From positions 407-64,406 of the forward strand of contig NZ_QZVT01000009.1 in NCBI RefSeq assembly GCF_003602275.1: DNA of 64,000 bases, read 5' to 3'. This DNA comes from Arthrobacter cheniae. Its GTDB lineage: Bacteria; Actinomycetota; Actinomycetes; Actinomycetales; Micrococcaceae. This document shows positions 8,162-15,552 of the stretch, piece by piece (positions within the stretch are counted from its first letter, which is position 1; each line of letters starts with the position of its first letter). The position numbers and the translations under genes are program-made. The notes under the pieces are model-generated. The model had not been told where the DNA came from, did no database searches, and saw only the letters and a list, made by a program, of their open reading frames with translations.

Positions 8162-9091
8162 TCATTGCAGGATCGGGCCTGCTGCGGCGCGCTGGTCGTG
8201 TGTGCAACAGGCGCAGGACGTTGCGGCTTTCTCCACGTCAGGGTCTGCTGGGGTACTTGCCGTGGTACCGGTTCCTGAGGGCCGGGTCGGCAACGTCGAC
8301 GCAACCGGTTCCGTGGAGGCGCTCCTCATTGGCGTGACCGCTTCTGCAGTGGTGTCGGTGCCGGAGCAGGAGTCCATGCCGCTGGCCGGCATGTCCCCGC
8401 ACGTATCAGCGCTACCGTCGTTTGCGGGTGTTCCGAAGGTCGGCGCGCAGCAGGCGTCGCCCTTCCACGCCTCAAGGCCTTCCTTGATGGCGACGGCGGC
8501 GATGACCAGTGCGGCTATCGGATCGGCCCAGGACCAGCCGAGGGTGCTGTTGAGCAGCAGTCCGACGAGCAGGACCCCGGACAGGTAGGTGCAGAGCAGG
8601 GTCTGCTTGGAATCGGCTACGGCGGACCGGGAGCCGAGTTCGCGTCCCGCCCTTCGTTGGGCCCAGGACAGGAACGGCATGACGGCGAGGCTGACCGCGG
8701 CGAGGATGATGCCCACCAACGAGTGCTGGGCTTCGCCGGCGCCGAGCAGGGTCCGCACGGCGTCGAAGGTCACGAACGCCGCGAGGCCGAAGAAGGAGAA
8801 CGCGATCAGGCGCAGCGCGGTCTTCTCCCGCGCCTCGGGGTCGCGTCCGGCGAACTGCCAGGCGACGGCAGCAGCGGAGAGGACCTCGACGATGGAATCC
8901 AGGCCGAAACCGATCAGGGCGCTCGAGGACGCGATCCTACCGGCACTGATCGCGATGACCGCTTCGACGACGTTGTAGGTGATCGTCGCCGCGACCAACA
9001 GCCGGATCCGGCGGGACAGGACCACCCTCCGCTCAGCCGTGGACGCCCGCCGGGCTGCCTGCGCCCGGTGCGATGAGGTGTGGGTGTTCAT
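8162..9091 (-). CDS. cation diffusion facilitator-like efflux protein with Cys-rich tail
   Basis: The chosen ATG at 9091 forms an ATGA overlap with the stop of the upstream regulator, so the pair is translationally coupled. The 309-residue protein starts with a polar segment, then five to six transmembrane helices of the CDF fold: TM2 holds the metal-site pattern SSALIGFGLDSIVE and TM5 holds SWADPIAALVIAAVAIKEG, with the conserved acidic residues. The usual cytoplasmic CDF domain is replaced by about 90 residues rich in Ser, Thr and cysteine (DACCAP, DTCGD, DSCSG, TSCACC). It likely exports Cd, Pb, Zn or a similar ion; the partner CmtR-like sensor supports Cd/Pb. Substrate is inferred. Confidence 0.82.
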   Translation of the reverse strand: MNTHTSSHRAQAARRASTAERRVVLSRRIRLLVAATITYNVVEAVIAISAGRIASSSALIGFGLDSIVEVLSAAAVAWQFAGRDPEAREKTALRLIAFSFFGLAAFVTFDAVRTLLGAGEAQHSLVGIILAAVSLAVMPFLSWAQRRAGRELGSRSAVADSKQTLLCTYLSGVLLVGLLLNSTLGWSWADPIAALVIAAVAIKEGLEAWKGDACCAPTFGTPANDGSADTCGDMPASGMDSCSGTDTTAEAVTPMRSASTEPVASTLPTRPSGTGTTASTPADPDVEKAATSCACCTHDQRAAAGPILQ

Positions 9092-9450
9092 GAGCAGCAC
9101 GCCATTCCATCGACGTGGGTACTTGTCGTGGCGCAGCAGCACTCGGGGTCGCGGACTGCCACGACCTCGAGGAGCGAGGTGAGGGCATCGCCCAGCTTCC
9201 GGTCGGCGAGCTCGTAGCGAACCCGCCGGCCCTCAGGGACGGCGACCACCAGCCCGCACCCGCGCAGGCAGGTCAGGTGGTTGGACAGGCTCTGCTTGCT
9301 CACCCCTGCCATCTCGGCAAGGTCACCCGGGTAGGACGGCGCCTCCCGCAAGGCCAGCAGGACCCGGGACCGGGTGGGGTCCGACAGTGCGTAGCCGAAC
9401 CGGGCCAGAACGGAGGACTGGGTGATGATTTCCACCCTTTGATGGTACAT
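9088..9450 (-). CDS. cmtR: ArsR/SmtB-family metal sensor, CmtR-like
   Basis: This 120-residue winged-helix repressor has the ArsR recognition region GVSKQSLSNHLTCLRGCGLV, in which Cys61 and Cys65 occupy the positions of the Cd(II)/Pb(II) ligands Cys57 and Cys61 of mycobacterial CmtR, and a C-terminal cluster CCC (104-106) and CC (118-119) that could supply the third thiolate and more. It probably represses itself and the efflux gene until metal binds. The ATG overlaps a GGTACAT/ATGTACC dyad that may be its operator. A GTG five codons downstream is an alternative start. Confidence 0.88.
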   Translation of the reverse strand: MYHQRVEIITQSSVLARFGYALSDPTRSRVLLALREAPSYPGDLAEMAGVSKQSLSNHLTCLRGCGLVVAVPEGRRVRYELADRKLGDALTSLLEVVAVRDPECCCATTSTHVDGMACCS

Positions 9451-11032: not shown

Positions 11033-12130
11033 TCACCACCGACCCGTCTGTGGCGTCGCTCTGTTGCGGGGAGACGGTCCTAGTTCCCCTGGGGCAGCTG
11101 GATCGCCCTGAGGAATGGCGCGCTCACGAAGGAATTCGGTGATCTTCGCGGCCATGGCCTTCGATTGGGTCCAGTGCAGGTAGTGCGGGCCCTCGAGCTC
11201 GACGATCTCGTGGTGAGTGACGTTCTTGAGCTGGTTCTCGTGCTTCTCGAGCCAGTTGGGAATAGTGGCGACGCTGTCGCTGGAGAGGAGGTCGAGAACG
11301 GGCATGTCGTCGGGGTAAGTCACTCCGTCGAGTGCTGCGGCATTGCTGCTCATTCGAGCGGTTTCATCGTCGACCGCCGCGTTACCGTAGTTCCAGCTCG
11401 TCATTGTGCGCATGTGTTGGAGTTCTGCCGCTGTGAAGTCGGCGTCGCTCGACGGGTCCGCCAGGCTGGGGGCGATCCAGACCACGGTTCGGACCAAGCC
11501 GATTGCGGATAATATCCGGCCGGCATTGATGCCGCCGCCGGTCGAGGAAGCTGTGCCCGCCTTGGCCAAGGGCACGGTGGGGTCAATGCCGACAACGGCG
11601 GTAACTTCGTCGGGATACCTGTTCGCGTAGTCGAGGGTGTAGAAGCCGGCGATGGAATGTCCTGCCAGAACGTAGGGCTGGCCGAGGGCAAGGGAGGAGA
11701 GGGCGTCATGGAGCTCGGTGCTGATGTTCTCTACGGTCCGCTCCCGTGCGCTCAAGTCGCTGTAGCCGTAGCCGAAACCTTCGATGACGATGACGTCGAA
11801 GGAGTCGAGTTCCCGGATCAGGGGCGCGAAGTCCAGCGCGGGCGCGGTTGTCCCCAGGCCACTGAGCAGGACAAGAGGTTGTGCACCTTCGGTGCCGGCC
11901 CGGTAGACGTTCATCGCGCCGTCGGCAACCTCCACGAGCTCGCCGTAGGGGGCAAGGCTCGATTTCTCGTGCTGTTCCAGGAAGAAGTTGCCTGCTGTGG
12001 ATGCAAGAGTCACTCCCAGCGCGGCAAGGGCGATGATGCCTGTGACCTTCAGCGCGCGCCGTGGCCGCCGGCGTCGTACGGTTGTTCGTTCTGACGCAGG
12101 GTGCGGTAGGTGACGGCTGACCTGTGGCAT
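11033..12130 (-). CDS. membrane-anchored or secreted alpha/beta hydrolase
   Basis: The 365-residue protein opens with a basic segment (RRRRPRRALK) and one hydrophobic helix (VTGIIALAALGVTLASTAGN), an uncleaved signal-anchor or signal peptide. The alpha/beta hydrolase core has the oxyanion strand LVLLSGLGTTAP, nucleophile elbow AGHSIAG near residue 155, a WIAPSLADPSSDADFTAAE lid region and the catalytic histidine in EGPHYLHWTQ near residue 325. The substrate is unknown; esterase or lipase is most likely. It ends 123 bases upstream of the GDPD gene in the same direction, so both secreted hydrolases may be co-transcribed. Its 5' side faces the ygiB-like operon across 299 bases. Confidence 0.82.
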   Translation of the reverse strand: MPQVSRHLPHPASERTTVRRRRPRRALKVTGIIALAALGVTLASTAGNFFLEQHEKSSLAPYGELVEVADGAMNVYRAGTEGAQPLVLLSGLGTTAPALDFAPLIRELDSFDVIVIEGFGYGYSDLSARERTVENISTELHDALSSLALGQPYVLAGHSIAGFYTLDYANRYPDEVTAVVGIDPTVPLAKAGTASSTGGGINAGRILSAIGLVRTVVWIAPSLADPSSDADFTAAELQHMRTMTSWNYGNAAVDDETARMSSNAAALDGVTYPDDMPVLDLLSSDSVATIPNWLEKHENQLKNVTHHEIVELEGPHYLHWTQSKAMAAKITEFLRERAIPQGDPAAPGELGPSPRNRATPQTGRW

Positions 12131-12336
12131 GGGGACGTTTCCAGACTCAAGGGTGTTGGGATGAAGGTGGAACCCGCCCGAAGGCGGGCCTTTCGCCGAA
12201 CGACATCACTTCCGAAGAAGGAGGGGAGGTCCCGCAGATGTGTTGTGTCTTCGCTGCGTTGACGCTGCACGTTCGCTCGGGGAACCGGTCGCGCTTCTTG
12301 CGAACCGAACGGGTGCAATGCCACCACACGAGGAGA

Positions 12337-12357
12337 ATATACCCCCAGGGGGTATAT
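12337..12357. promoter_or_regulatory. CsoR/CstR-like operator palindrome
   Basis: A perfect palindrome of two ten-base arms (ATATACCCCC and GGGGGTATAT) around a single A lies 72 bases before the lipoprotein start codon. Operators of the CsoR family (Cu(I)-sensing CsoR/RicR and persulfide-sensing CstR) share the TACCCC/GGGGTA pattern. It is in the divergent region between the hydrolase and the lipoprotein-ligase-permease operon and could control either; it is closer to the operon. No csoR-like gene is in this window. A small GCCCGCC/GGCGGGC hairpin at 12173-12188 is the only other structure in this gap. Confidence 0.65.
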
Positions 12358-12429
12358 CTCAAGGGTGTGGATGGAACTCGAGCAGCCAGCACGATGACAC
12401 AGCCGGGCAGCCCCGGTAGAAAGGTAGAC

Positions 12430-12864
12430 ATGGATCCCCAGCTCCCCCCGGCCGCCGCGAGGGCACTCGTTCGCGGAACAGCAGGTAGTGCACGCCTCCG
12501 CCGGAGCTCGAGCGTCGCCCTCGGAGTGACGGCCCTGCTCTCGAGCGCACTCCTGACCGGGTGTTCGCCGGACGGCGAGGTCATCGATGCCGATTACGCG
12601 AAGGTGTGCCAGGACCGCACTACCCAGGAACGGGCGGAGGACGATCGCTGCAGCGACCGAGGCGTGTCCTCGGGCCTGTACGGCTGGTACTTCCTGGCCA
12701 TGGGTTCGGACAGCCGTAGCATCCCGGCCGTCGGTTCCGGACTCTCGGGAGGCACGAACTCCATACCGCCCGGTGCTACGTCGAGGTCCGGTGTAACACC
12801 CGACGGATCCTCCTCGGTCTCGCGCGGCGGCTTCGGCAGCAGCAATGGCGGAACGGGCGGATGA
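12430..12864 (+). CDS. YgiB/DUF1190-like lipoprotein
   Basis: The ATG at 12430 follows AGAAAGG. The 144-residue product has a basic N-terminus and a lipoprotein signal ending in the lipobox LLTGC (lipidated Cys45). The mature part is short, with two further cysteines (KVCQD, DRCSD), a GLYGWYFL segment and a Ser/Gly-rich tail that contains SRGGFGSSNGG. The tail motif RGGFG and the position directly before a YgiC-type ligase match enterobacterial YgiB and YjfM (DUF1190). In those operons the lipoprotein is thought to be the target or partner of the ligase. Overall similarity is weak, so the family link rests on context and the tail. It overlaps the open frame of the ligase. Confidence 0.7.
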   Translation: MDPQLPPAAARALVRGTAGSARLRRSSSVALGVTALLSSALLTGCSPDGEVIDADYAKVCQDRTTQERAEDDRCSDRGVSSGLYGWYFLAMGSDSRSIPAVGSGLSGGTNSIPPGATSRSGVTPDGSSSVSRGGFGSSNGGTGG

Positions 12865-12865
12865 C

Positions 12866-14047
12866 GTGAAACGACGCACCTCGACGCCGCGGCCGGACTG
12901 GCGCCAGAAGATCGAGAGCGTGGGCCTGATCTACTCGACGACCATCAAGCCCGACGGCGAGGCGATCGAATACTGGAACGAGGGGGCGTACTACGAGTTC
13001 GAGATGAGCGAAGTGGAGACGCTGGAAGCCGTCACCGAGGAGATGCACGAGATGTCCCTCAACGCTGCCCGTTATCTCGCCACCGGAGCCATGGGCACGA
13101 TCGGCATCGGCGCGGACGCACTACGGCTCGCGGCAGAGTCCCTCGAGAAGTCCGACCCCGCCGTCTACGGCCGGTTCGACTTCGCCTACGACGGCTATGG
13201 CCCGGCGAAGCTGCTCGAGTACAACGCGGACACCCCCACAGGCCTCATCGAGGCCTCGCTCGCGCAGTACTACTGGCTGCAGGACGTCCGGCCCGAGTCC
13301 GACCAGTGGAACGGCATCCACGAAGCGCTCGTCGCATCCTGGCAGAAGCTGTACGCGGCGTCCGGGCTGACCACGCTGCACGTCGCCCATACGGAGGTCG
13401 AGACGTCCGGCGAGGACTGGATGACGGCCGCCTACATGCGCGACGTCGCCATGCAGGGCGGCTGGAACACCGTCGGCATCAACATGGGCGACATCGGCTG
13501 GGACGCCGACAGCAAGCTCTTCGTCGACCTCGACGACGAGCCCATTTCCACCATGTTCAAGCTGTACCCGTGGGAGCTCATGATCAAGGAGGAGTTCGGC
13601 AGGCACATCCTCGCCTGGCCGACGTCGACGCGCTGGATAGAACCCGCCTGGAAGATGCTCCTCTCCACCAAGGCCCTGCTCGCCGCTCTCTGGCACCTCT
13701 ACCCGAACCACCCCAACCTCCTGCCCGCCTATCTCGACTCGCCACGTGAACTGTCCGAATGGGTGGCGAAGCCGCTGCACGGACGCGAAGGGGACAACAT
13801 CCGTATTCATGCCTACGGCATCGAGCTCGAGCAGCCCGGGGACTACGGCTCGGAGGGCTGGTGCTACCAGGCCTGGCACCCGCTGCCGTCGATGGACGGC
13901 AACCGGCCGGTCCTCGGTTCGTGGGTGGTCGACGGCGAGAGCGTCGGCGTGGGAATCCGCGAATCGGACGGCTATGTCACCGACTACTTCTGCCGCTTCG
14001 TCCCGAACGTCATCAACGCTCCCGCCCCTCCGGTGGGCGCACCATGA
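12866..14047 (+). CDS. YgiC/YjfC-like ATP-grasp ligase (glutathionylspermidine synthase family)
   Basis: The GTG at 12866 is chosen because its product VKRRTSTPRPDWRQK aligns residue for residue with the N-terminus of E. coli YgiC (12 residues before the conserved PDW tryptophan) and GGCGGA precedes it; an ATG at 12845 is the alternative. The 393-residue protein keeps the family blocks IEYWNEGAYYEF, FDFAYDGYGPAKLLEYNADT, TMFKLYPWELMIKEEFG, WIEPAWKMLLSTKALLAALW, PNHPNLLPAYL, VAKPLHGREGDNI and GSWVVDGESVGVGIRESDG. These form the ATP-grasp domain of glutathionylspermidine synthase without the amidase domain, so it likely forms an amide bond on a peptide or polyamine. Substrates are unknown. ATGA overlap couples it to the permease. 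Confidence 0.88.
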   Translation: MKRRTSTPRPDWRQKIESVGLIYSTTIKPDGEAIEYWNEGAYYEFEMSEVETLEAVTEEMHEMSLNAARYLATGAMGTIGIGADALRLAAESLEKSDPAVYGRFDFAYDGYGPAKLLEYNADTPTGLIEASLAQYYWLQDVRPESDQWNGIHEALVASWQKLYAASGLTTLHVAHTEVETSGEDWMTAAYMRDVAMQGGWNTVGINMGDIGWDADSKLFVDLDDEPISTMFKLYPWELMIKEEFGRHILAWPTSTRWIEPAWKMLLSTKALLAALWHLYPNHPNLLPAYLDSPRELSEWVAKPLHGREGDNIRIHAYGIELEQPGDYGSEGWCYQAWHPLPSMDGNRPVLGSWVVDGESVGVGIRESDGYVTDYFCRFVPNVINAPAPPVGAP

Positions 14048-15552
14048 CCGCGGGTACGTCCTCCCCGATCCTCCGGGACAAGGGCTTGTCCCGGAACGAC
14101 CTGGGGCTTGCAGGCAGCGTCTCGATCGGCCTGTCCTCGACGGCGCCCGTCTACTCCCTGGCCGCTACCCTCGGTTTCGTCGTCCTCGCGGTCGGGGTCC
14201 ACGCGCCGGCAGCATTCATCCTCGCCTTCGTGCCCATGCTGTTCATCGCGTTCGCGTACCGCGAGCTGAACAACGCGCTACCGGACTGCGGGACCACGTT
14301 CATCTGGGCCTCGGTCGCCTTCGGCCGGTTCACGGGCTGGCTCGGCGGGTGGGGTGTCGCACTGTCGGGAATCGTCGTCCTCGCGAACCTCGCCCAGATC
14401 GCCGGCACCTACCTGTGGCTGCTGGTGGACGAGGGCCTTGCATCCAACACGGCGCTGGTTACCGCTACCGGAGTGGCGTTCATCGCGGCCATGACTTGGA
14501 CCAACTATCGGGGCATCGACCTCGGGGAGAAGATGCAGCGCGTCACGATCATCGTCCAGTACGTCGCGCTCGCGGTGTTCGTGGCTTTCCTGGCCTGGCG
14601 CCTGGCCTCGGGACAGGCGTTCGATGCCACACGGATCAGCGCGGACTGGTTCAACCCGTTCGCCATAGGGAGCCTCGGGACCGCGGTGTACGGGGTCCTG
14701 ATCGCCCTCTTCGCCTACTGGGGATGGGACACCTGCCTCGCGCTCAATGAGGAGACGCGCAGTCCGAGGACCACGCCGGGCCGTGCCGCCATTATCTCGT
14801 CGGTGGTGCTGCTCGTCACCTACACCGGGGTGAGCGCGCTGGTGATCATGTTCGCAGGCACGGGGAGCGAGGGGATCGGCCTCGGCAACGAAGCGCACGC
14901 CGCAGACGTCTTCTACGCGATCAGCGAGGCCGCGCTCGGTCCGTGGGCCTGGATCGCTGTCGTCGCGGTCCTCGTGTCGGCCATTGCCGCGACCCAGACG
15001 ACCATCCTGCCCACGGCACGCGGGACGCTCGCGATGGCTGCCCACGGAGCGCTCCCGCGCCGCTTCGCGACGGTGCACTCCGTCTACCTCACTCCGACCT
15101 TCTCCACGATCCTGATGGGCGTGACCGCGTCCGCCTACTACGTCGTCCTGACCCTCGTCAGCGAGAACGTCCTGGCCGACTCGATCGCTTCGCTCGGGCT
15201 CTTCATCGCTTTCTACTACGGCGTCACGGGCTTCGCGTGCGTCTGGTACTTCCGGCACACGCTGCGCTCGAGCACCCGCAACCTGGTGTTCCGGGGAATC
15301 CTGCCGCTGCTGGGAGGCCTCCTGATGACGGCGGCCTTCGTCCTGTCAGCGGTCGCCATGCTCGACCCGGGCTACGGGCGAACGGTCATCGGAGGTATCG
15401 GCGGGACGTTCGTGATCGGAGTGGGAGCACTCCTGCTCGGCGTGGCCCTGATGGCCCTGTACTACTCTTCCCGACGACGGCGTGACTGCGCGGATCAGGC
15501 GATCGCCGATGTCCGTGCGGCTGCCTCGGCAGACCCGGGAACAGTCGGCTGA
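14044..15552 (+). CDS. APC-family amino acid/polyamine permease
   Basis: The ATG at 14044 overlaps the ligase stop (ATGA); a longer open frame upstream lies over the ligase gene and is not real. The 502-residue protein has about 12 transmembrane helices. The first contains the APC substrate-binding loop (VSIGLSSTAPVYSLAATLG), TM3 region has WASVAFGRFTGWLGGW, and TM6 region has ALFAYWGWDTCLALNEETRSPRTTPGRA, typical of the amino acid-polyamine-organocation superfamily. Being locked in an operon with a YgiC-like ligase and a YgiB-like lipoprotein, it may import the amino acid or polyamine that the ligase uses. It ends nine bases from a convergent MFS gene. Confidence 0.88.
   Translation: MTAGTSSPILRDKGLSRNDLGLAGSVSIGLSSTAPVYSLAATLGFVVLAVGVHAPAAFILAFVPMLFIAFAYRELNNALPDCGTTFIWASVAFGRFTGWLGGWGVALSGIVVLANLAQIAGTYLWLLVDEGLASNTALVTATGVAFIAAMTWTNYRGIDLGEKMQRVTIIVQYVALAVFVAFLAWRLASGQAFDATRISADWFNPFAIGSLGTAVYGVLIALFAYWGWDTCLALNEETRSPRTTPGRAAIISSVVLLVTYTGVSALVIMFAGTGSEGIGLGNEAHAADVFYAISEAALGPWAWIAVVAVLVSAIAATQTTILPTARGTLAMAAHGALPRRFATVHSVYLTPTFSTILMGVTASAYYVVLTLVSENVLADSIASLGLFIAFYYGVTGFACVWYFRHTLRSSTRNLVFRGILPLLGGLLMTAAFVLSAVAMLDPGYGRTVIGGIGGTFVIGVGALLLGVALMALYYSSRRRRDCADQAIADVRAAASADPGTVG

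Follow-up and report, generated by a model that had tools for sequence, protein, structure and literature searches.

Three plus-strand genes that overlap or almost touch, encoding a small lipoprotein, an ATP-grasp ligase and an APC-superfamily permease, lie within a 64-kilobase (kb) stretch of the Arthrobacter cheniae genome (contig NZ_QZVT01000009.1; the whole stretch is referred to as the window, and features are listed in Table 1). With about even confidence, they are read as a YgiB-YgiC-type operon that is equipped with an importer and amidates the C-terminal tail of the partner lipoprotein, alongside which a CsoR operator belonging to a divergent hydrolase gene was brought by rearrangement. 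In the proposed pathway the permease would import a polyamine or similar amine, and the ATP-grasp enzyme would convert a C-terminal carboxylate into an acyl phosphate, to which the amine would then be joined. The most likely source of this carboxylate is the partner lipoprotein, whose G[GS]-COOH tail would be modified in the cytosol prior to export, so that the protein reaching the surface would carry an amide and a positive charge at its C-terminus. The palindrome upstream would be a copper-type CsoR operator within the hydrolase promoter, placed beside the operon by a rearrangement with its junction at 12363-12418. The initial annotation of this DNA had already treated the three genes as one unit; their coordinates, the 12864/12866 spacing and the ATGA overlap were confirmed, and the layout suggests a single transcript.

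The same annotation had assigned the ligase to the YgiC/YjfC kind, and this assignment stands. The 400-residue protein matches PF03738 at 475.5 bits against a cut-off of 29.3, over profile positions 1-371 of 371; this is the sole family over its cut-off and no amidase domain was found, pointing to a stand-alone synthetase. Its GTG start is better than the in-frame ATG, because in most homologues the alignment starts near residue 8. Among solved structures the closest are YgiC (PDB 7uk8/7uka, E 2.2e-79) and YjfC (7uk6/7uk7), then trypanothione synthetase and Gss, with identities of 39% to YgiC, 36% to YjfC and 23% to the synthetase region of Gss. Residues R110, D112, E125, N127, K276, K309, R314 and R372 are invariant across nine aligned sequences including Escherichia coli Gss, and are taken here to be involved in ATP or metal binding. 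These core residues are common to the window ligase and the synthetase part of Gss; the two differ in the absence of an amidase domain from the window ligase, whose substrate is presumably not glutathione. The product of the E. coli pair had been called unknown in the annotation, a statement now out of date, as RefSeq names both YgiC and YjfC peptide--spermidine ligases. Pederick et al. (2023; Biochemistry 62:899) use the same designation in their title, as cited in PMC12270671, PMC12568646 and PMC10948618; an excerpt of PMC12568646 refers to the two enzymes as peptidylpolyamine synthetases, and an excerpt of PMC12506659 gives Gss activity as absent from YgiC. In the open literature searched, no paper was found that names what the YgiC/YjfC ligases act on naturally, although Pederick et al. 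(2023) may say more. The window ligase may have peptide-spermidine ligase activity.

Conservation of the partner centres on its C-terminal tail. The ligase was matched in 39 of 197 genomes of the family (Micrococcaceae) and in only 4 of 11 genomes of the genus, so that the operon is patchy; 30 loci, own included, were fetched with flanks of approximately 1.5 kb to the left and right of the ligase gene. A partner open reading frame (ORF) with this type of tail precedes the ligase in 30/30, all matching a loose pattern ([RK]G+[FYLM]G within 70 residues of the C-terminus) and ending in GG (25/30) or GS (5/30). In one group of these loci (L021-L031, L033-L035), the partner has a membrane segment, no lipobox Cys and often a long N-terminal extension, and the RGGFG...GG tail is kept. 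A genome-collection search, whose nearest named contigs came from Arthrobacter, Pseudarthrobacter and Paenarthrobacter, yielded at least 585 loci; the best 80 were examined, nearly all of them from Actinomycetota with one from an Acidobacteriota metagenome-assembled genome, and because only the best were kept, close relatives are over-represented. Of these 80 loci, 78 encode a partner whose tail is of the RGG[FL]G type (loose pattern), ending in GG (48), GS (26), GT (1), SS (2) or AS (1), that is, in GG, GS or GT in 75/78. After the motif, the partners of L192 and L200 contain a long Ser-Gly stretch. In a phylum-wide draw, PF03738 was found in 19 of 296 genomes, and among the 18 loci with a ligase hit the loose pattern is matched by 13 partners, or 11 under a stricter pattern. 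The seven misses (five phylum-wide, and L156 and L181 of the 80) are near-variants such as ERAGFG, TQGGFG and DSGGFG, all ending in GG. Among the other ORFs of the 80 loci (n = 409), the pattern is found in 12 and a G[GST] end in 13, with both features in 5; of these five, those in L154 and L158 are direct partners missed by the filter and that in L173 resembles a second partner-type protein. This last ORF, at an Actinomadura locus (L173:1772-2410), ends in RGGFG...SGG and occurs in addition to the ligase's direct neighbour, perhaps as a second substrate.

Comparable tails terminate the E. coli proteins, with TVTRGGFG...MGG in YgiB and STVSRGGYG...WGG in YjfM. The E. coli pairs YgiB-YgiC and YjfM-YjfC resemble the window in enzyme family, gene order and the combination of [ST]RGG[FY]G with a Gly-Gly C-terminus, but the window adds an APC permease, and its partner is shorter and unmatched by the DUF1190 profile. 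Partner-ligase pairs of the PF03738 family in Streptomyces, Micromonospora and other Actinomycetota have the two genes and the tail motif in common with the window; they differ in that no window-like permease follows at E <= 1e-6, a DUF350 protein following in L076. Operons of DUF1190 proteins and ligases with PspA and DUF350 partners are described in PMC11237479. Searches of open-access papers turned up no description of the partner tail as a substrate, of a permease accompanying the pair or of a link to CsoR.

The label YgiB-like given to the lipoprotein is therefore retained in part, on the basis of its lipobox, gene position and common C-terminal motif, since full-length homology was not significant in profile searches. 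Neither Pfam nor NCBIfam returned any family for the window lipoprotein at E <= 1, PF06693 (DUF1190) included, and DUF1190 was touched by only 2 of 14 partner sequences, with a best E of 0.07. A hidden Markov model (HMM) built from the 78 partners reached YgiB at E 0.05, compared with 0.084 for the best of 400 shuffles, and the tail stretch of YgiB at 0.0007; YjfM, at 0.33, fell behind three shuffles. Profile-profile comparison returned only a 12-residue match in the tail (probability 18%, E 0.0014). Full-length homology to YgiB, not firm by Pfam, profile-profile comparison or HMM, was thus set aside in favour of motif and gene position.

The permease belongs to the APC family (AA_permease_2, 93.2 bits). 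Of three E. coli polyamine carriers the nearest is PuuP (24% identity), followed by PlaP (23%), with no real match to PotE; NCBIfam hits were all below cut-off. The three-gene order recurs within the family, where a permease follows the ligase in 22 of the 29 fetched relatives (18 at 45-83% identity, 4 at 30-43%), but extends to few of the 80 wider loci. S-adenosylmethionine (AdoMet) decarboxylase (PF02675) was matched in 0/197 family genomes, compared with 8/14 control genomes, and an imported polyamine is plausible for this reason. The sole PF02784 gene of the A. cheniae genome reads as lysA, judging by its neighbours. For spermidine synthase (PF01564, cut-off 22.9 bits), the same genome gave two matches, one slightly above the cut-off at 24.1 bits and one below it; the better gene scored 22.5 as a whole protein and was not accepted as a spermidine synthase, although it may be one.

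Since the tail stays this constant while the rest of the protein varies, and since the neighbouring enzyme is of a kind that amidates carboxylates, the tail is most simply interpreted as the substrate of the ligase. The earlier proposal that an imported amine is joined to the lipoprotein is strengthened by the conserved tail and by the naming of the E. coli enzymes. Several points weigh against it. The case for the tail as substrate is drawn from conservation and adjacency; common descent of the partner with DUF1190 is not firmly established by full-length profiles; the 78 tails include 29 with a terminal Ser and one with a terminal Thr; and many family partners are membrane-segmented and without a lipobox Cys, so that modification would have to precede insertion. 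As for supply, the substrate of the permease is not readable from its sequence, seven of the 29 family relatives have no permease within approximately 1.5 kb, including the nearest (L017, 88% ligase identity), and only 15 of the 80 loci, all bearing Micrococcaceae names, have one after the ligase, the other 65 having none at E <= 1e-6. AdoMet decarboxylase is missing across the whole family, genomes without the operon included. Moreover, an Orn/Lys/Arg-decarboxylase-like match (PF01276) occurs in the A. cheniae genome (G000:C22:122198-123087) as two stretches, one with a stop; this gene is possibly broken, but some diamine might on this account be made inside the cell.

An alternative that is considered unlikely, yet is the strongest of those weighed here, is that the product of the ligase is a small soluble peptide-polyamine conjugate resembling glutathionylspermidine, with the lipoprotein acting as a separate metal-binding or sensing partner. 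The fold, that of glutathionylspermidine and trypanothione synthetases, is in keeping with such a product, and an excerpt of PMC11237479 terms DUF1190 a metal-chelating lipoprotein, but the conserved tail with its G[GST] end in most partners and its constant adjacency to the ligase would be left unexplained. Tail amidation is accordingly preferred for the window, and its extension, that YgiC-type ligases in general amidate the G[GS] tail of an RGG[FYL]G surface protein with a polyamine, supplied in Micrococcaceae by an APC importer, is put forward tentatively, as a possibility short of an even chance.

The second part of the reading concerns the palindrome ATATACCCCC-A-GGGGGTATAT, which is perfect, ends 72 base pairs (bp) before the lipoprotein ATG and lies 206 bp from the hydrolase start codon. 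Its description as a CsoR-type element in the initial annotation was upheld by its occurrence across the genome. A shuffle control inside the window is weak, as two half-sites at <=1 mismatch also arose in 7 of 100 shuffles, whereas the genome control is strong: in the 4.02 Mb genome (37 contigs), TATACCCCC-N-GGGGGTATA at <=3 mismatches gives eight sites and the reversed control none. Two of the eight are directly upstream of the genome's two CsoR-family (PF02583) genes, one of which lies ahead of an HMA-domain P-type ATPase and the other of which adjoins rhodanese and metallo-beta-lactamase-rhodanese genes. By eye, the first protein contains a Cys-His-Cys set, presumably the copper CsoR fingerprint, and the second is without the His, as we take to be the case in CstR. 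The box before the second gene, ATTACCCCCGGGGGTATA, has no central base. Around this gene (L012, G000:C28:12000-22500), rhodanese, thioredoxin-like and metallo-beta-lactamase-rhodanese genes occur together with several related boxes, one of them without a central base.

Across the genus, the perfect 17-mer was found at 23 sites in 16 of 38 genomes, in a search that required one-base spacing and therefore covered sites of that form. Of the 19 sites examined, 15 adjoin metal-ATPase or HMA-like genes, including a site on contig C33 of A. cheniae that precedes a short HMA-like reading frame; two (L048, L050) are at a DUF4396/MFS pair or at the MFS gene of such a pair, and two are hydrolase boxes (window, L094). 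In 14 fetched loci (L049, L051-L063) the metal-ATPase/HMA-type proteins were recognised by similarity to the copper genes of the A. cheniae genome, and Pfam confirmed E1-E2_ATPase in all seven that were submitted. The divergent DUF4396/MFS pair, with related boxes at L015:4671-6804 (G000:C15), L048 and L050 (only the MFS gene being matched in L050), is a possible further copper-regulon unit. Taken together, the palindrome is a real regulatory element and a CsoR-type operator, for which CsoR binding and a copper response are predicted.

The position of these boxes within promoters indicates which gene they serve. Among the loci L048-L063, 13/16 have a TTGAC-type hexamer and a 17-bp spacer enclosing the palindrome, L048 and L050 having TTGC-type hexamers and L054 no good hexamer. 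The better-scoring promoter strand matches a gene of the metal-ATPase/HMA or DUF4396/MFS kind in 14/16, with ties in L054 and L062; L048, L051, L057 and L059 discriminate little, because each is flanked left and right by such genes or by DUF326-type ones. In the window, the palindrome has the layout of CsoR-type copper operators inside TTGAC-N17 promoters toward the hydrolase and not toward the operon. Scores there are 9.5 for the minus strand (TTGAGA-N17-TATTCT) against 7 for the plus strand, and a separate scan of 12080-12480 found exactly one promoter-like site, the same minus-strand one (0.1 expected), with none on the plus strand under the E. coli-type consensus used. The pattern TTGAS-N18-TATNNT occurs once in the entire window, with 0.02 expected.

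The divergent hydrolase gene and the box are also conserved together. A search of 38 genus genomes for the hydrolase block (11033-12429) gave a match in six: the own genome, two with long matches (G199 77%, G216 76%) and three with matches of 28-34 bp only (G206, G212, G057). The two long matches span hydrolase and palindrome, stopping at window positions 12368 and 12363. Of 295 family genomes searched for the hydrolase, 22 matched and 20 loci were fetched. In the four closest orthologues (66-100% identity, own included, one from another genus), the palindrome is present with 0, 1, 1 and 2 mismatches, 225-227 bp before the gene and with a central base in each, and -35, box and -10 are aligned as one conserved block; at that spot it is absent from the other 16 fetched loci (<=57% identity). 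The palindrome is most likely the operator of the divergent hydrolase rather than of the ligase operon, judging by this conservation and layout, and the hydrolase, with the box kept in 4/4 close orthologues from two genera, is a candidate member of a copper regulon. Against this, the surroundings of the G199 and G216 matches, covered over 14 and 15 kb, contained neither the operon nor copper-type panel genes, so that the copper link of the hydrolase is drawn from the box. A small conserved ORF was sought by eye in three frames of the 206-bp hydrolase leader, with nothing convincing.

Conservation of the palindrome upstream of orthologous operons, as expected of an operator of the ligase genes, was not observed. 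With the window spacing and <=5 mismatches, it was found nowhere in the fetched loci of the 29 relatives; six hits of exactly five mismatches and other spacing, in five of these loci, look like chance. Nor was it found upstream at <=3 mismatches in the 80 further loci, of which L149 and L180 hold only approximately 330 bp upstream. Similarity of the operon to its near relatives starts at window positions 12394 (L017) and 12418 (L018), where a different gene lies upstream, and as similarity of the hydrolase block ends at 12363/12368, the two blocks appear to have been joined between 12363 and 12418. Copper or sulfur-stress control of the operon, suggested by the initial annotation, was consequently rejected as the main interpretation, given that orthologous operons do not have the box, that the promoter faces away and that it is the hydrolase with which the box is conserved. 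These results lend no support to a copper role for the ligase. It is quite improbable that the rearrangement replaced the native upstream region, leaving the CsoR-type box to govern both divergent genes and to confer copper control in this A. cheniae strain: the box does lie between the two genes, the late start of the sequence common to relatives may mean that a native promoter was lost, and one CsoR-family gene of the genome adjoins a P-type ATPase, but the sole promoter-like site is on the minus strand and none of the 29 relatives has the box. Least probable is a persulfide (CstR-type) response in place of copper, for although a similar box precedes the CsoR-family gene beside the rhodanese genes, that box has no central base, unlike all four hydrolase boxes, and most perfect one-base-spaced genus sites, the only spacing searched, adjoin metal-ATPase or HMA-like genes.

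The palindrome is thus assigned to the hydrolase, which together with an MFS-type gene (by eye) on the other strand forms the direct neighbourhood of the operon; in E. coli the corresponding neighbours are yjfIJKL-type genes. Near the hydrolase block (8162-9450, minus strand; names by eye) lie an ArsR-like regulator gene and, after it, a cation-diffusion-facilitator-like gene.

Table 1. Features of the operon region of the window, with the two CsoR-family genes located elsewhere in the genome.
Feature	Position	Strand	Comment
Small lipoprotein, 144 amino acids; lipobox LLTGC (by eye)	12430..12864	+	Ligase partner, proposed acyl substrate
Partner C-terminal tail, SVSRGGFGSSNGGTGG-COOH	12814..12861	+	Best-conserved part; motif common to YgiB and YjfM
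ATP-grasp ligase, glutathionylspermidine-synthetase fold	12866..14047	+	PF03738; GTG start preferred over ATG 12845
APC-superfamily permease	14044..15552	+	AA_permease_2; ATGA overlap 14044-14047 with ligase gene
Perfect 21-bp CsoR-type palindrome	12337..12357	n/a	Best read as operator of the divergent hydrolase
Promoter-like site TTGAGA-N17-TATTCT	12334..12362	-	Palindrome fills spacer; faces hydrolase
Divergent alpha/beta-hydrolase, N-terminal membrane segment (by eye)	11033..12130	-	Probable owner of palindrome
Junction zone	12363..12418	n/a	Hydrolase-block similarity stops, operon similarity starts
CsoR	C22:45279		Own-genome contig
Second CsoR-family protein	C28:17027		Own-genome contig

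What is new here is a permease-equipped variant of the known YgiB-YgiC-type pair, together with a specific substrate hypothesis. The assignment of the palindrome to the hydrolase takes a misleading copper link off the ligase and makes the hydrolase a candidate member of a copper-type regulon. The permease suggests a route to amines for species without the AdoMet-decarboxylase path, and the conserved partner tail would provide one concrete substrate candidate for the YgiC/YjfC ligases, in E. coli as well as in Arthrobacter-type soil bacteria.

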